A stretch of 39,374 nucleotides of DNA from a candidate division Zixibacteria bacterium RBG_16_53_22 (GCA_001775395.1 MEWP01000028.1:1-39374), one strand, 5' to 3'; numbered from the stretch's first letter, positions 19,344 through 26,991 are shown. Notes: generated by a model not told the origin, from the sequence alone. Numbers and translations: made by a program.

Positions 19344-20678
19344 ATGAAGACCTTAAAAGAGCTTCAGGAAAGCCTGAAGAAATTTCTAACCGAAGCCCGC
19401 GACTTATGCGATCTAGTCGACAAAGAAAAGCGGGACTTCACGGCCGAGGAGCGCCAGAAGGTAGCCGGGCTGCTGGAAGACGCTAAGAAAGTGAAGGCCG
19501 AGATCAAAACCGTCCAGGACGACGAGGCAATGCGCAAGAGCATCCTCGACCTGGGCGAGGGCATCGAGATCAAAGACGGTGGACAGAACGGCAACGGCCA
19601 CGGAAACGGGCGCGTGAAGGGCGCTCAGTTCCTGGCGGAAGCCCAATTCGACACCCTGGGCGACGCATTCGTGCGGTCCAAAGCCTGGCAGGATTGGCTG
19701 AAGCAAGTAGCGCCGGGAGGCCACATCGCCGACAGCCGCAAGGGCATCTCATCGCCACCCCTGGAATTCAAGCGCTTCGGGTTGTTCCGCAAGGACCTGA
19801 TCACCGGCGCTGCCGATACCAGTGCGGGTGCTTTCTTGATGGCGGAGGATACCGGCATCTACGAGCCGTTGGGGCGCTACCCGCTTACGCTGCGGGACCT
19901 GATCAGCACACGGACCACGACCAGCGACGCGGTGGAGTTCGTGCGCCAGACGACGCAGGTGCACCAGGCTGCACCGACAGCGGAGGCCAACGTCACAGAT
20001 TACACCGGCGCGACAGGGCAGGTGAGCGGCGAGAAACCGGAAGGATCCACGACCTTCGAGCGGGTGACCGAGAACGTGAAGACCATCGCGGTGTGGATCC
20101 CAGCTACGAAACGGGCGCTGTCGGACGTCGGGCAGCTGCGGGGTCTCATCGACCAGGAACTGCGCGAAGACCTGGGGGAGGAGCTCGAAGACCAGCTCCT
20201 GAACGGAGACGGGATCGGCGAGAACTTCACCGGTCTCGCCAACACAGCCAACGTCCTGGTGCAGGCCTGGGATACCGATTTGATCACCACGGCGCGCAAG
20301 GCGATCACCAATCTTTTAGTCAACGGCAAACAGGTGCCCACGGCCTGGCTGCTCAACCCGCAGGACTGGGAGACGATCGACCTGCTGCAGGACCTGCAGG
20401 GGCGCTATTACTGGGGCGGCCCGCAGACACCCGGGCAGCGAACCATGTGGGGCGTGCCGGTGGTGCAGAACTTCTTCGTGCCGCAGGGCACAGGATACCT
20501 GGGCAACTGGCGCAAGATGGTGCTGTGGGACCGTGAACAGGCGACCATCTCGGTGAGCGATTCGCACGCAGACTTCTTCATCCGCAACATGGTGGCGATT
20601 TTGGCAGAGCTCCGGGCGGCTATGGGAGTGATCCGGCCGACCGGGTTCGTCGAAGTGGACCTGGAGAGCGGAAGCTAA
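19344..20678 (+). CDS. Major capsid protein, HK97 fold
   Basis: 444 residues starting 3 bases after the protease stop. Residues 1-75 form a long charged helix (LKELQESLKKFLTEARDLCDLVDKEKRDFTAEE), the scaffold-like delta domain removed by the protease. A Gly/Asn-rich hinge (NGNGHGNGR) precedes the mature shell region. E-loop and P-domain features of the HK97 family follow: FLMAEDTGIYEPLGRYPLTLRDLI, then IDQELREDLGEELEDQLLNGDGIGENFTGL, AWLLNPQDWETIDLLQD, and the closing FFIRNMVAILAELRAAMGVIRPTGFVEV. No separate scaffold gene is present, as expected for this type. Confidence 0.93.
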   Translation: MKTLKELQESLKKFLTEARDLCDLVDKEKRDFTAEERQKVAGLLEDAKKVKAEIKTVQDDEAMRKSILDLGEGIEIKDGGQNGNGHGNGRVKGAQFLAEAQFDTLGDAFVRSKAWQDWLKQVAPGGHIADSRKGISSPPLEFKRFGLFRKDLITGAADTSAGAFLMAEDTGIYEPLGRYPLTLRDLISTRTTTSDAVEFVRQTTQVHQAAPTAEANVTDYTGATGQVSGEKPEGSTTFERVTENVKTIAVWIPATKRALSDVGQLRGLIDQELREDLGEELEDQLLNGDGIGENFTGLANTANVLVQAWDTDLITTARKAITNLLVNGKQVPTAWLLNPQDWETIDLLQDLQGRYYWGGPQTPGQRTMWGVPVVQNFFVPQGTGYLGNWRKMVLWDREQATISVSDSHADFFIRNMVAILAELRAAMGVIRPTGFVEVDLESGS

Positions 20679-20692
20679 CCACCTCACCCCGG

Positions 20693-20714
20693 CCCCTCTC
20701 CTAAAGGAGAGGGG
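20693..20714 (+). promoter_or_regulatory. Perfect 10-bp hairpin between capsid gene and sugar module
   Basis: CCCCTCTCCT pairs with AGGAGAGGGG across a 2-nt loop. The surrounding CCTCACCCCGGCC run resembles palindromes repeated in several bacterial genomes, including Chloroflexota (recall, not a search result). It may attenuate transcription after the capsid gene or mark the insertion edge of the module. The Shine-Dalgarno for 20726 (AGGAG, 20717-20721) lies outside the stem. Confidence 0.6.
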
Positions 20715-20725
20715 AGAGGAGAACT

Positions 20726-22255
20726 ATGGATCTGGCGGTCAATATCATCTGCCGAAATGCGCAAGAAGACCGGGTGATCCCGAGGTTTTCGAGATACCTG
20801 GCGAATAATTTGGGCTGGATAGTGACCGCCAGACCGGACCCATCGGCGGAGGCTTACTACCTCTCGGGTTACTTCGAGGAGACATACCTACGACCGTGGC
20901 CAAGGAAACCCGTGGCGGCTTATTTCACCCACCGTGAGACGCAGCCACCGGGAAATGGAAAAGCCAAACTGTTCGATAGGCTGGCGGCGAAAGTGAACCT
21001 AAGGATCGCCACGGCAGCGATGTACGCCGATATGCTGACAGATTACGGGCCGACGGCGCAGATCAACCCACCGGTGGAGCGAGAGCGCTTCACCATCCCT
21101 GCCAAGAAAGCCAAGGGACGCCTGGTGGCGGGCTTTTCAGGATACACCTACGCCAACAAACGCAAGGGCGAGAATCTGGCCAAGATGCTGATCGGGTCGA
21201 AGGTGGGTAGGTCGGTAGAGTGGAGGGCATCAGGGCGGGGCTGGCCGGTGATGACACGGCGCTACCCCTGGTCGGCGATGCCGAGCTTCTACCAGTCGCT
21301 GGACGTGTACGTAGCGACTGGCACAGTGGAGGGGGTGCCGATGCCGCCGCTGGAGTGTTTAGCGTGCGGGGTGTCGGTGGTGGTGCCCCTACACGTGGGC
21401 TTATTGGATGAGCTTCCGGAGGTACTCGGGATCCACCGTTATAAAGCTGGCGACGTGAGCAGCATGATCACAGCGCTAGCGGAGGCGCTGGAGATGCGCA
21501 GCCAGGTGGACCGCCAGGCGCTCAGAGATGCAACAGAGCGGTACACGGTCAGGAACTGGTGCGAACAGCACCGCCTGGCTTTCGAAGGGATTTATCCCAA
21601 CAAGGAGCGCATATTGAACCAAACATTGACCGCGGAAGATGATGTGATATTGAGCTGGGTGCGCGATGTATATCCCAATGTTGGCGCTGTCCTGGCGTGG
21701 ACGGGGAGGCATATCCCATACATCAAGCGGCAGATCGCGCCTTACCAGGGAGCGATCCTGGCTTATTTTGCACACCACCAAAACCGGCAGGGAGCGCACT
21801 TTCTTGAAATCGGTACAGCGCTGGGCTACTCAGCCTGTTTGATGGCTACTGCGGCGCCATTAGCCCAAATAACGACCCTCAATCCCAAGGATAACGAATT
21901 CGAAAAAGCCCGCGATAGTCTCAAGATACGTTCCACTGTGCGTGTGGTCAAAAGCACCTCTCAAGATTTCTGGATGGCCAGGGATGGCGAGCTATATAAC
22001 CTTATTTTTGTGGACGGCGACCATTCCTATAACATGGTGCTGCACGACAGCCAATTTTTCAATTGCTTGTACACGGGCGGCCTGATTCTCTTTCACGATT
22101 ACTCCCCCAATGGCAGCGCCCGGCCAAGCGATGGCAGCTTTCAGGCGTTGAACGATCTCCAGACTCGACATCGACAGGCCGATATTAAGATCATCGGTTC
22201 GGGTCAGATCGGGATGTTGGGATGGGTGCGGCGGGAGGGCGAGGTATGGGCGTGA
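20726..22255 (+). CDS. Bifunctional glycosyltransferase (GT4) - class I methyltransferase
   Basis: 509 residues. Residues about 1-295 are a GT4/GT-B glycosyltransferase: PPVERERF, RLVAGFSGYTYANKRKGENLAKML, then the EX7E sugar-nucleotide motif Glu202-Glu210 in TVEGVPMPPLECLACGVSVV. Residues about 345-509 are a SAM-dependent O-methyltransferase (Methyltransf_24 type): HFLEIGTALGYSACL (SAM loop, Glu361-Gly363), FVDGDHSYNMVLHD (428-441) and ILFHDYSPNG. The acceptor is unknown; candidates are virion proteins or host wall polymers. The C-terminal half has different codon style from the GT half, as if two genes had fused. It lies amid head genes, bounded by hairpins. Confidence 0.85.
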   Translation: MDLAVNIICRNAQEDRVIPRFSRYLANNLGWIVTARPDPSAEAYYLSGYFEETYLRPWPRKPVAAYFTHRETQPPGNGKAKLFDRLAAKVNLRIATAAMYADMLTDYGPTAQINPPVERERFTIPAKKAKGRLVAGFSGYTYANKRKGENLAKMLIGSKVGRSVEWRASGRGWPVMTRRYPWSAMPSFYQSLDVYVATGTVEGVPMPPLECLACGVSVVVPLHVGLLDELPEVLGIHRYKAGDVSSMITALAEALEMRSQVDRQALRDATERYTVRNWCEQHRLAFEGIYPNKERILNQTLTAEDDVILSWVRDVYPNVGAVLAWTGRHIPYIKRQIAPYQGAILAYFAHHQNRQGAHFLEIGTALGYSACLMATAAPLAQITTLNPKDNEFEKARDSLKIRSTVRVVKSTSQDFWMARDGELYNLIFVDGDHSYNMVLHDSQFFNCLYTGGLILFHDYSPNGSARPSDGSFQALNDLQTRHRQADIKIIGSGQIGMLGWVRREGEVWA

Positions 22256-23007
22256 CGCGAGGCATCTATGCAGTGGCCTTTGGAGACCCGGCGCGCAGAT
22301 GCGCACAGCGCATGTTGCAGTCGGCTCGCTGCCATCTGCCAGAGATTCCAGTCATGATCTGTTCCACCGAGCCATTGGGAGGGGAAGATTACTTTGTGCC
22401 CCGGCCCGACAGAGACATTGGCGGGCGCGGCACCAAACTAATGGCCTACGAACTCACCCCTCCCGAATGGCAGACAGTCTTATACCTGGATGCCGACACA
22501 GAAATTGTAGGTGATATCCGCCTCTACTTTCAACTGATAGAGGACGGTTGGGAATTCGTCATCTGCAAGGACCCCATGCGCGAAGACGTGGCACAACTGC
22601 CGCGGCACAAATACATGGCAGCAGAACTGGTAGAACTGGAGGCCAGCATGGGCACGCTGCACACGCTCATGCTGAACGGCGGTGTGTGGAGTTTTGCCCG
22701 TAACGAGCGCGTGGCCGCATTTTTCACCCGCTGGCAGGCCGAATGGCAGCGGCACGGCATGCGCGATCAAGGTGCATTGCTGCGGGCGCTCTATGCTGAC
22801 CCGCTCAAGGTTTATATTTTGGGCAATGAGTGGAATTTCTTTCCACAATATTCATCCCGGATCACCAAGCCTGCCGGCCTGATGCACTATCCAGGGCAGG
22901 CGCGGCGTTGGAGCGGGCAGATACCAGGACGTCTGGATAGCCAGGTTGCCTGGCAGCATGTGCGGCAGTGGCTAGGCGCAAATGTCAATGGGAGAGGGCG
23001 TAGATGA
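22246..23007 (+). CDS. Glycosyltransferase, GT-A fold with DxD motif (GT8-like)
   Basis: 253 residues from ATG 22246, which overlaps the previous gene and has GGGAGGGCGAGG upstream. TKLMAYELTPPEWQTVLYLDADTEIVGD gives the DxD metal motif Asp82-Ala-Asp84 within the GT8 context. LMLNGGVWSFARNERVAAFFTRW, then RDQGALLRAL, and NEWNFFPQY with a MHYPG ending complete the pattern. The enzyme would add a sugar from a nucleotide donor; acceptor unknown. Together with the GT4-methyltransferase it makes a two-sugar pathway in one coupled unit. Confidence 0.82.
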   Translation: MGVTRGIYAVAFGDPARRCAQRMLQSARCHLPEIPVMICSTEPLGGEDYFVPRPDRDIGGRGTKLMAYELTPPEWQTVLYLDADTEIVGDIRLYFQLIEDGWEFVICKDPMREDVAQLPRHKYMAAELVELEASMGTLHTLMLNGGVWSFARNERVAAFFTRWQAEWQRHGMRDQGALLRALYADPLKVYILGNEWNFFPQYSSRITKPAGLMHYPGQARRWSGQIPGRLDSQVAWQHVRQWLGANVNGRGRR

Positions 23008-23639
23008 GCGGTATTCTGCTCTTAGGCAGGGATGACGTGATCGAGAGCCGGGCGCGCGGCCACAAGGTGCCTCTGGAACACGGCAGTTCACCAGCATTGC
23101 CTTTTGACAAAACGCTCATTACCTCTCCGGGAATACGCGTGCCGTGGGACTTGTTGCCGGTTGCCTGGGGTCTCCTGGACCATTGGGATGCAGCCGTCCC
23201 ACTATGGCGCTACGATATCACCGCTGAGGGTCTCGGTACTACCAATGAGCGACAGGCAACACAGGCCATTATTCGGGATCTGCGGGTGCTCTTGCATTCC
23301 TACGAGCTGCTCTTTGTGCGCTGCAACGAGGCAGGGCGAGCGCTGGTTGAAACCTGGGTTCAGGAATACGCCGAAGGTGGTGAAAAACGACTGGCGCTCT
23401 TACGGGCTCTATATATCGTGAAGCCTCGTGCCTGCGTGCTGCCGACCTCCTGGCTGGCCAATATCCGCACGGATAGTGCCCAGACGGTAGCCAGGGGGAG
23501 GGTTAGATCAGCCGCTACGCGCAATACGGGCAGGCCGCTGGTAAAGGTGGAGGTGGCGCCGGGGCGGTACGTGAAGTGCAGACCGGGAGACGAACAAAAA
23601 GTGCTGGAACAGTTCAGGCGGCAGGTGGTGAGGAAATAA
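23004..23639 (+). CDS. Unknown third protein of the sugar module
   Basis: 211 residues overlapping the GT8-like stop. I do not recognise it. The middle (DLLPVAWGLLDHWDAAVPLWRYDI, then QAIIRDLRVLLHSYELLFVRCNEAGRALVETWVQEY) is alpha/beta with a likely nucleotide- or acceptor-binding look. The last 40 residues (RPLVKVEVAPGRYVKCRPGDEQKVLEQF) resemble the basic beta start of the next protein at 23798 (LVRVELRKGQFVKMYEADA), a short module that may attach these proteins to the capsid. This similarity hints that the sugar module acts on the virion. Confidence 0.55.
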   Translation: MSGILLLGRDDVIESRARGHKVPLEHGSSPALPFDKTLITSPGIRVPWDLLPVAWGLLDHWDAAVPLWRYDITAEGLGTTNERQATQAIIRDLRVLLHSYELLFVRCNEAGRALVETWVQEYAEGGEKRLALLRALYIVKPRACVLPTSWLANIRTDSAQTVARGRVRSAATRNTGRPLVKVEVAPGRYVKCRPGDEQKVLEQFRRQVVRK

Positions 23640-23698
23640 GAGATTAGCTATTAGTTATTAGCAAGACAAAGAAAGAAGAGTTGCATTGGAGGTAGACA

Positions 23699-23743
23699 GT
23701 GAAACCAGGCGGACACTGTCAATTCTCCAAAGGAGAGAATTGA
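23699..23743 (+). CDS. 14-codon leader peptide ending at a hairpin
   Basis: GTG 23699 has GGAGG 6 nt upstream and reads MKPGGHCQFSKGEN, with TGA immediately before ATG 23744. The GTG lies inside one hairpin (GACAGTG 23695-23701 with CACTGTC 23714-23720). The peptide end CQFSKGEN closely matches the one at 28677-28736 (CQLSKGDN). Ribosomes on it would open the second hairpin at 23720-23742. Confidence 0.5.
   Translation: MKPGGHCQFSKGEN
23720..23742 (+). promoter_or_regulatory. Hairpin covering the ribosome-binding site of 23744
   Basis: CAATTCTCC (23720-23728) pairs with GGAGAGAATTG (23732-23742) around AAA, with a small bulge. The SD sequence AAAGGAG lies in the loop and 3' arm, just before ATG 23744. 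It is a near copy of the hairpin at 28713-28735. Confidence 0.7.
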
Positions 23744-24166
23744 ATGGCAGTTATTGGAGATAAAAAATCTTGGCCAGTTGATACACAGGAGGTACGAATG
23801 AGCAAAGGTAAATTAGTGCGAGTGGAGCTTAGAAAAGGGCAGTTCGTCAAAATGTACGAGGCGGACGCCATCGCCAAGGGATTACTAGCCCCAAAAGCGA
23901 AGCCCCAGGCGACAAACAAGATGCGCACACCCCCGGAGAATAAATCGGCGCCAGCTGAGACAGAGACCGGACGGGCGCAGCCCGAGCATACGCAACCCCC
24001 AGCTGGGGATGACTTTACCACTATACCAGGAATTGGAAAAGGCACGGCGCGGGCGCTGGCAGCCAACGGGATCACCACCTTCGAACAGCTCAAGGCGGCA
24101 GGCAAGCTGGATTACCTGACGCCCAAGGCCAGGCAGGCGATCGAGGATTGGATCGGAAGTACTTAA
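23744..24166 (+). CDS. Helix-hairpin-helix capsid-region protein, with two possible starts
   Basis: 140 residues from ATG 23744 or 122 from ATG 23798. The second start has AGGAGGT 5 nt upstream and is probably the main one; the first depends on a hairpin-covered site. From residue 23 the sequence LVRVELRKGQFVKMYEADAIAKGL is a basic beta module. A Pro/Glu-rich linker follows. The last 50 residues (FTTIPGIGKGTARALAANGITTFEQLKAAG) are a helix-hairpin-helix DNA- or protein-binding domain. Similar proteins lie between capsid and connector genes in other phages. Role unknown, perhaps head completion. Confidence 0.7.
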   Translation: MAVIGDKKSWPVDTQEVRMSKGKLVRVELRKGQFVKMYEADAIAKGLLAPKAKPQATNKMRTPPENKSAPAETETGRAQPEHTQPPAGDDFTTIPGIGKGTARALAANGITTFEQLKAAGKLDYLTPKARQAIEDWIGST

Positions 24167-24942: not shown

Positions 24943-26991
24943 ATGAGTGTTAAGTGGGCTGGCGCTGCTGGCATTGAAACTACGTCTGCCGTTGCTGGCA
25001 GGGAGATTTCGAGTGTCTCTGGAACAGTTGACATTGAAACCTCTCTGGTGCGAGACAGCGGCAAGGCATATCGCTTCACGCCTGGAACCACCAAGCAAAT
25101 TCAACACAACTCTTATAGTGCCGGGCAAGGCATTCACTATTATAGGGTTTATCTTCGTCTAGTGACTGCACCTGCGGGACAACGTGCCTGGGTTTCGATA
25201 GACAACTCATCTGCCTTGAAAATCGGTGTGCGTCTAGGCACTGACAGGACTTTGCAGCTATACAACGAAGAAGATTTAGCTAACATTGGTAGTGCTTCTT
25301 CTGCAATCAATACGGGTGAGTATTATCGCTTAGAGTTGAAAGTAGACAGCACAACTCTTGCTTCGACCGTGGTTGAGGCAAGACTGTATGCCGCTAGTGC
25401 AGAAGGTACTTTGCTTTGGAACCCTTCTGGTACTGTCAATATGTCGGTTGACCCCAATCGGCTCAGTATAACCAATCGTAATGATGCTAACCTGGATTTC
25501 ATCGCCACGGACTTGGTCATCATCCGAGACGATGGCACTGCACCTAACTCTTGGGCGGAGCAAGGCAGTCTGGTATATCTCAGACCCGACGGCGTCAGCG
25601 GCACACCCCAGTGGACACGGGGTGGGACGGATACAGGCGCAAACTGGTCACAGTTGACTGAAACTCCTCCTGATGGTGTAACAACCTATGTAACGAGTAA
25701 CACAAGTGGACAAATAGACGATTACACGATGGCAGCTACTCCAGCAGCAGTAGGTTCGTCTGATGTCATCAATTGGTTGGCGATTGGCACTTGGTTTGCT
25801 ATTTCATCTGCATCCGGCGCCGACCCAGACTTTGTAACTCGGATTACATACGGTGGAAATACGGATGAAAGCGGCAATCTGTCTACTCAATCTGGTGGCA
25901 CTGGTTATAAGGCTTATCAAACAGGACCTCCACTTCTTGTGTTTCCACAGGTCAGCGTGGACTTGCCAGGTGCAAGCACAACCGCATGGACAAAGGCAGC
26001 ATTAGATGCTGTGGTGGTTGGTATTCGTGAGAGTGCAACCGATACCAATCTTGTACGTGTCTCGGCGGTCTGGCTGATATTCGACCATAAGCCGGCTATC
26101 AATACTCTGGTTATAGATGATGCCAGCCATGCTCACACGGCAGAGAGCCCGGCACTCACGCAGCACAATGTCCTGGCGGTCCAGGATGGGGCGCATGCCC
26201 ATACAGCGGAGACGATTGCACTGGTGCAGCACAACATCCTGGGGATCGATGATGCGGCGCATGGGCATACGGCGGAGAACCCGACTCTGACAGCGCACGA
26301 GGCAAGTACGTCACTGACGGTCCAGGATGCAAGCCATTCCCATACGGCGGATAGCCTGGCACTGACACAGCATAATATCCTTTCCATTCAGGATGGAGCT
26401 CACGCACACACGGCAGAGACCCCGGCGCTGACGCAGCACAACATTTTATCGATAGCGGATGCAACGCATGGACATCAGGCGGAGAACATCAGCCTGACGC
26501 AGCATAACGTCCTATCGATCGCAGATGCCAGCCACGGGCACCAGGCGGACGATCTGGCGCTGACGCAACATAATGTTTTATCGATCGCAGATGCAGCGCA
26601 TACACATGGGGCGGATGCCCTGGCGTTGACACAGCACAATGTATTATCGCTTGCGGATGCAACGCATGGACACCAGGCGGAGAACGTAACCCTCACTGCA
26701 CACGAGCCCAGCGGAACGGTTTTGACCATCGCAGATGCCAGCCACGGGCATACGGCAGAAACGATCAGCCTGACGCAGCATAACGTTTTGACCATTGCAG
26801 ATGCAAGTCATGCTCACTCAGCGGATGGAATTAGCCTGGTGCAACATCACGTATTAACCATAACGGATGCGAGCCATAGCCATCAAGCAGAAAATATCTC
26901 GCTTACTGCTCATCTTCCAGGAGGGCAGGGCGAGCACAAGATGACGATGATCGGCATCTTCGAGGGGATTGCGATCGGAATGGAGACATAA
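24943..26991 (+). CDS. Repeat fibre: LamG-like domain plus twelve His-rich repeats
   Basis: 682 residues. Residues about 20-210 look like a LamG/concanavalin-type jelly roll (AYRFTPGTTKQIQHN, YYRVYLRLV, YYRLELKVDSTTLASTVVEARLYA). Residues about 215-385 form a second beta domain common in phage fibres. Residues 389-660 are twelve repeats of about 22 residues, pattern L-x-I-x-D-A-S-H-x-H-x-A-(E/D)-x3-L-T-x-H-N-(I/V), with two short insertions. Three His per unit could coordinate metal, as HxH motifs do in T4 gp37. It lies among head genes, so a head or neck fibre is possible, although a tail fibre cannot be excluded. Confidence 0.7.
   Translation: MSVKWAGAAGIETTSAVAGREISSVSGTVDIETSLVRDSGKAYRFTPGTTKQIQHNSYSAGQGIHYYRVYLRLVTAPAGQRAWVSIDNSSALKIGVRLGTDRTLQLYNEEDLANIGSASSAINTGEYYRLELKVDSTTLASTVVEARLYAASAEGTLLWNPSGTVNMSVDPNRLSITNRNDANLDFIATDLVIIRDDGTAPNSWAEQGSLVYLRPDGVSGTPQWTRGGTDTGANWSQLTETPPDGVTTYVTSNTSGQIDDYTMAATPAAVGSSDVINWLAIGTWFAISSASGADPDFVTRITYGGNTDESGNLSTQSGGTGYKAYQTGPPLLVFPQVSVDLPGASTTAWTKAALDAVVVGIRESATDTNLVRVSAVWLIFDHKPAINTLVIDDASHAHTAESPALTQHNVLAVQDGAHAHTAETIALVQHNILGIDDAAHGHTAENPTLTAHEASTSLTVQDASHSHTADSLALTQHNILSIQDGAHAHTAETPALTQHNILSIADATHGHQAENISLTQHNVLSIADASHGHQADDLALTQHNVLSIADAAHTHGADALALTQHNVLSLADATHGHQAENVTLTAHEPSGTVLTIADASHGHTAETISLTQHNVLTIADASHAHSADGISLVQHHVLTITDASHSHQAENISLTAHLPGGQGEHKMTMIGIFEGIAIGMET
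26107..26925 (+). repeat. Twelve 66-bp-class tandem repeats encoding His-rich units
   Basis: Degenerate tandem repeats of about 66 bp, with copies 3 and 9 longer by a few codons. Codons vary between copies while the residue pattern is kept, which indicates selection on the protein and an old array. Confidence 0.9.

Follow-up and report, generated by a model that had tools for sequence, protein, structure and literature searches.

Why would a phage place sugar-transferring enzymes between the genes for its capsid and its connector? The question is raised by the window, that is, the whole 39,374-base stretch of DNA analysed here (bases 1-39374 of a 45,697-base contig), which belongs to a 3.86 Mb metagenome-assembled genome (MAG) and carries a siphovirus with an integrase. 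The terminase of this phage is ~50% identical to those of actinobacteriophages, and its capsid protein (MCP) is 46% identical to those of cluster N mycobacteriophages. Three ORFs spanning 2.9 kb (hereafter, the cassette) lie between MCP and the connector (Table 1). They encode a fusion of a GT4-type glycosyltransferase (GT) and a methyltransferase (GT4-MT), a GT8 glycosyltransferase and a third protein (hereafter, p3).

The tyrosine integrase gene runs from 38311 in the window to 39537 of the contig, of which bases 39375-39510 are masked as N, and the contig beyond the window, up to 45,697, carries HTH-like genes. Because an integrase is present and the contig continues with HTH-like genes, the phage is probably temperate. 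Besides the window, p3 was found on three bacterial MAG contigs, two from Anaerolineae/Anaerolineales and one from Dehalococcoidia. As all of these are Chloroflexota, the host is probably an uncultured Chloroflexota bacterium, the taxonomy of the three p3-bearing contigs being the sole basis for this assignment. A p3 search of 133 genomes of the same phylum (placement by tool) returned none except the window's own.

Table 1 Features of the head operon and the cassette in the window.
Feature	Position	Strand	Evidence or remark
MCP, HK97 type	19344..20678	+	PF05065 3.3e-42, PHROG 10 1.5e-61; cassette directly 3'
Left hairpin, CCCCTCTCCT/AGGAGAGGGG	20693..20714	.	Fold analysis; 10-bp stem, just 5' of the GT4-MT ribosome-binding site
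GT4-MT gene	20726-22255	+	509 aa
GT4-type glycosyltransferase domain, residues 1-290 (approx.)	20726..21595	+	PF00534/PF13692, EX7E motif EGVPMPPLE
O-methyltransferase-like domain, residues ~311-509	21656..22252	+	PF13578 (Methyltransf_24) 9.5e-14, residues 360-459
GT8 glycosyltransferase	22246..23007	+	PF01501 9.4e-7, above cut-off; DxD (LYLDADTE) intact, C-terminal His
p3 gene	23004-23639	+	Third cassette ORF
p3 GT-A/GT8-like domain, residues 1-150, without DxD	23004..23453	+	hhalign, AlphaFold2, Foldseek
p3 C-terminal basic module (PLVKVEVAPGRYVKCRPGDEQKV...)	23529..23636	+	hhalign; conserved in p3 tails
Two hairpins 5' of the 23744 gene	23695..23743	.	Fold analysis; Shine-Dalgarno AAAGGA in the loop of the second
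Small head-region protein (23744 protein)	23744..24166	+	PF14520 3.2e-6
Module of the 23744 protein, KLVRVELRKGQFVKMYEADAIAKGLL	~23801-23893		Followed by NKMRTPPENK linker
Helix-hairpin-helix (HHH) domain of the 23744 protein	~24011-24127		C-terminal
Genes between the 23744 protein and the head-tail adaptor	24320, 24943
Head-tail adaptor	26992

Enzymes of the cassette

The original prediction of a GT4-methyltransferase fusion and a GT8-like enzyme between capsid and connector was borne out by the profile matches, just sub-threshold for GT4, and by the intact DxD of GT8. Residues 180-255 of the GT4 domain matched GT1/GT4 profiles (PF00534/PF13692) at E 7e-6 to 9e-6, which is 0.4-0.6 bits under Pfam's cut-off, and the catalytic EX7E motif is largely kept (67 of 85 relatives, by a strict pattern). 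The nearest solved structures to the methyltransferase domain were O-methyltransferases in the PDB (5e-5). Apart from the window, only a handful of close relatives (L003, L004, L006, L041 and L047) have this domain between GT4 and GT8. The single hydrophobic stretch of the cassette above the usual threshold lies in GT4-MT and is probably part of the SAM-binding fold; no membrane-protein partner, including GtrA/flippase-like ones, was found in the cassette by Pfam or hydrophobicity.

The start of GT8 was best placed at 22246 by the alignment of relatives, in which D82, D84 and H214 are invariant. The DxD motif was detected in 87/88 relatives, the exception (L094) being a locus-end case whose match covers residues 4-87 only. 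With its profile match, DxD and metal-binding His, the protein is assigned to the GT8 family, and it weakly resembles glycogenin-2. GT4-MT and GT8 overlap by 10 bp (22246/22255), and GT8 and p3 by ATGA (23004/23007); because of these overlaps, the three genes look translationally coupled.

Hairpins had been proposed to bound the module on both sides. Both exist and fold better than shuffled sequences (z -2.4 at 20693-20714 and -3.1 at 23695-23743), and the left one is single-copy in the assembly, but they are neither terminator-like nor conserved in relatives, where the gap between MCP and GT4 is often <20 nt with no hairpin; we thus rejected them as module boundaries. The Shine-Dalgarno sequence of the 23744 gene sits in the loop of a 9-bp hairpin (23719-23743), and the hairpin before GT4-MT has a similar CTCC(T)AAAGGAG core. 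Translational control by these non-conserved hairpins is possible.

A GT8-like protein sharing a module with a head protein

p3 matched no family in Pfam, PHROG or NCBIfam, and to that extent its earlier description as an unknown protein stands; its fold and motifs tell more. In profile alignment (hhalign), p3 matched GT8 with a probability of 86.9 (E 4e-6). The AlphaFold2 model of p3 (pLDDT 90.8) retrieved GT-A nucleotide-diphospho-sugar transferases including LgtC from the PDB, and viral glycosyltransferases from BFVD, when searched with Foldseek; the best PDB and viral matches had a probability of 0.95-1.00 but a TM of only 0.3-0.5. p3 is accordingly modelled with a GT-A, Rossmann-like nucleotide-diphospho-sugar transferase fold, and the idea of an unrelated protein of unknown fold was ruled out by hhalign, the model, Foldseek and motif comparison taken together.

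The place of the DxD in the window p3 is taken by SPG, and in relatives mostly by xPG or xAG, with a DxD in 0/52 aligned members. The NGG motif, the DQ motif and the C-terminal metal-binding His are missing as well. Since the DxD is absent, p3 does not count as an active GT8, and it is apparently an inactive GT8-like protein, which forms a single group in the tree apart from the active GT8 types. Residues including W61, P66, W68, Y70, D92, R94, R134, K140, P141 and W150 are invariant in a 35-member alignment, which shows the p3 gene to be under selection. One relative (L008:11934-12740) has a p3 with an in-frame run of DHDGA/HHDGA repeats within the GT8-like domain.

The C-terminus of p3 had been predicted to resemble the beginning of the head protein that follows. 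The profile-profile comparison (hhalign) of the p3 C-terminus with the N-terminus of the 23744 protein confirmed this, with a probability of 96.8 and E 2e-10. Both sequences have the pattern PLVxVEIxPGRFVKxxxxDE, and strand-strand-helix was predicted at the module in both structures (for the 23744 protein, an alignment of 21 sequences and a model with pLDDT 74.5). By sequence and predicted structure, the two segments are homologous. In some phages with no detected HHH gene, the p3 tails continue as DK-rich repeats resembling the HHH protein's linker. A gene fusion of p3 and HHH was found on one contig only (L004), and we treated it as a weak sign of joint action. In two distant phages (L075 and L081), the dead domain of p3 carries a short N-terminal extension resembling a small module, in place of the C-terminal one (by eye only). 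The N-terminal p3 extensions in L089, L131 and L056 were dismissed by eye as upstream read-through without coding character.

Relatives, variable slot and cassette exchange

Uncultivated-virus contigs were scanned with GT8, MCP, p3 and terminase to collect relatives. More than 70 contigs showed the order portal - protease - MCP - GT4 - GT8 - (0 to 4 kb) - p3 - (HHH protein) - adaptor, of which short contigs show only part. In 110 loci (some overlapping, from one contig) MCP is followed immediately by GT4, often <20 nt away, and in most relatives one ORF of ~545-620 aa encodes both GT4 and GT8. In one relative, an inserted ORF resembling an HNH homing endonuclease separates MCP from GT4 (L055:6367-7011, by eye).

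We then profiled the slot ORFs, defined as those between MCP and adaptor other than GT4, GT8, p3 and HHH (n=67). The matches were to Methyltransf_11 (26), GT2 (15), Sulfotransfer_3 (10), Methyltransf_24 (5), Sulfotransfer_4 (3), NAD-dependent epimerase (2) and UDPG/MGDP dehydrogenase (1), and no other functional class stood out among them. Judging from these matches, glycan enzymes make up most of what occupies the slot separating GT8 from p3. Sulfotransferase genes adjoin glycosyltransferases in several head operons (L039:9773-10303, L090:8846-10048 and L068:3428-4429), and a literature search for phage sulfotransferases found no account of them among the papers covered.

The linkage of cassette and capsid was profiled in relatives picked by terminase, not by cassette or capsid. 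Cassette-type glycosyltransferases were found behind MCP in 17/17 loci with the MCP type of the window versus 0/19 with other capsids (Fisher P 1e-10; some loci are interrelated). The 19 loci with other capsids have terminases 64-76% identical and no recognisable cassette gene. The cassette thus appears to go with the capsid type, which supports, but does not prove, the capsid as acceptor, since some loci are interrelated and the adjacency of MCP and cassette makes co-inheritance expected, so that the linkage may partly reflect hitch-hiking. No glycosylation site was recognised in MCP. Its SGS C-terminus was rejected as a candidate, being also present in phage Charlie, which has no GT by its capsid gene, and absent from some cassette phages.

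Four loci (L082-L085) have an MCP 80-84% identical to that of the window, and a terminase 92% identical where present, yet have another cassette in this position. In L082 and L085, where it could be read completely, the swapped cassette consists of a GT8, a methyltransferase and a methyltransferase-GT8 fusion ending in a p3-type module. This module-bearing GT8 homologue (GT8m) keeps a DxE and the C-terminal His. Between L082 and the window, DNA homology ends at the MCP stop codon and resumes within the 23744 gene. By sequence comparison, the difference between these loci and the window is a cassette exchange at a fixed site.

Described systems and proposed role

The original prediction knew of no described phage pathway with this set, and here it has to be corrected. 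According to Freeman et al. 2023, as cited in PMC11600133, PMC12363180 and PMC12619734, the capsid and tail tube of Corndogvirus (cluster O mycobacteriophage) are glycosylated by phage enzymes. Its gene order is portal - O-methyltransferase - three GTs - protease - capsid, and both phages have a PF13578 methyltransferase and several GTs inside a siphovirus head operon. However, the Corndogvirus cassette is upstream of the protease, whereas that of the window is behind MCP, and the Corndogvirus GTs are GT2/GT7C-like, GT25-like and one unassigned, in contrast to GT4 and GT8. The GT8 and p3 profiles had hhalign probabilities <1 against Firecracker gp34-36, and blastp gave nothing significant. Searches of the window GTs against 50,697 phage records returned no match, and no p3-like protein was found in the phage collection. 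Phage-encoded GTs are also reported to glycosylate virion proteins in Che8 (cluster F1) and Myrna (cluster C) (PMC11256854, PMC12363180). The GTs of the F1 phage Maravista are placed elsewhere, towards the 3' terminus of its genome (PMC11256854). Judged by its EX7E and DxD motifs and its place in a head operon with an O-methyltransferase, the window cassette is a candidate for the Corndog/Che8 type of virion-glycosylation cassette, but its GTs show no detectable homology to those of Corndogvirus.

An unoccupied arrangement is seen in Charlie (cluster N), whose MCP is 46% identical to that of the window and whose head operon has the same order of MCP, small protein and head-tail adaptor, with GT and methyltransferase genes absent between MCP and adaptor. 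Charlie gp7 (77 aa) was rejected as a clear homologue of the head module, since the likeness in module and NK-rich linker is weak (hhalign probability 9). With respect to the GT8 family (LgtC, glycogenin), the window GT8 matches PF01501 and the p3 fold matches LgtC; unlike in that family, the cassette GT8 is fused behind GT4 in most relatives, and p3 has lost the DxD, the DQ motif and the C-terminal His. The kind of cassette is therefore known; new are the GT4-GT8 pair, a p3 that carries a head module, the presence of sulfotransferases and the swapping linked to the capsid.

With a probability of roughly 0.7, we consider the three genes to be a virion-glycosylation cassette of the late head operon. 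The GT4 and GT8 domains would act in the cytoplasm during head making, each in turn adding a sugar to a head protein, and the methyltransferase would cap a sugar. p3, itself non-catalytic, would serve as an adaptor or scaffold, using its module either to bring the enzymes to the head or to join the head. The likeliest acceptor would be the capsid protein, with another head or tail protein possible. That the GTs have no membrane partner and sit inside a late operon agrees with a head protein being glycosylated directly as heads assemble. The predicted tie to head assembly is supported, and so is virion modification as the likeliest role; the His-repeat fibre has lost its standing as the natural target, its gene lying outside the conserved cassette of relatives. 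That gene (24943-26991) encodes a protein of 682 aa, whose N-terminus matches PHROG 14065 and which contains a His-rich repeat of ~22 residues (66-bp unit). A locus with an unrelated capsid and a terminase 74% identical (L203) terminates in a homologous repeat.

Relatives may lengthen or cap the glycan differently, with further GT2s, methyltransferases, sulfotransferases and epimerases. Given these differing enzymes and the exchange of the cassette as one block, the sugar coat is probably a surface trait that varies. Only tentatively do we go further and propose p3 as a dedicated pseudo-glycosyltransferase adaptor, a dead GT8 fold with a head module, that would dock onto the capsid, as it assembles, the enzymes that transfer sugars, methyl groups and sulfate. 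The phage lineage (probably of Chloroflexota) would then have interchangeable, sometimes sulfated glycan coats, their type switched by cassette exchange behind a near-constant capsid gene.

Other acceptors were weighed against the virion. Phage GTs that modify host polysaccharide are well known, and as this phage has an integrase, its enzymes could act as prophage seroconversion genes do, altering the host surface so as to mask receptors or exclude superinfecting phages, their late-operon place being accidental. Such GTs are mentioned in PMC10955285. We consider this unlikely, given that the cassette has no GtrA/flippase-like partner, is within the late head operon and not adjoining the integrase, and tracks the capsid type, and that the p3 module is common to a head protein. 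It is more improbable still that the GTs glycosylate the phage's own DNA, giving hypermodified bases, and that the methyltransferase works on this DNA or on the sugar. Phage GTs commonly glycosylate DNA, and one PHROG matching the methyltransferase domain is labelled 'DNA methyltransferase'; however, thymidylate-synthase-like, hydroxymethylase and TET-like genes were absent among the contig ORFs scanned with Pfam, so no base-hydroxylating step is at hand, and neither the sulfotransferases and sugar epimerases of relatives nor the head-operon position fit.

p3 could also be a structural or decoration protein of the head, made from a recycled dead GT8 fold, with the GTs acting on p3 or beside it. 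Its gene usually closes the cassette, ahead of the head proteins, and p3 shares the module and DK-type tails with them and has lost its catalytic motifs, all of which agree with such a part. The swapped cassettes, however, carry the module on GT8m with its DxE and C-terminal His, which suggests enzyme targeting and not a purely structural role, and we regard decoration by p3 as improbable too, though well above DNA modification.

A few mycobacteriophages have been shown to glycosylate their virions, which was interpreted as a shield against mammalian antibodies. An exchangeable glycan cassette tied to the capsid across a broad environmental phage group, as proposed here, argues for a role of the sugar coat in the environment or the bacterial host. 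The p3 family offers a testable idea of how glycan enzymes may get aimed at the capsid.
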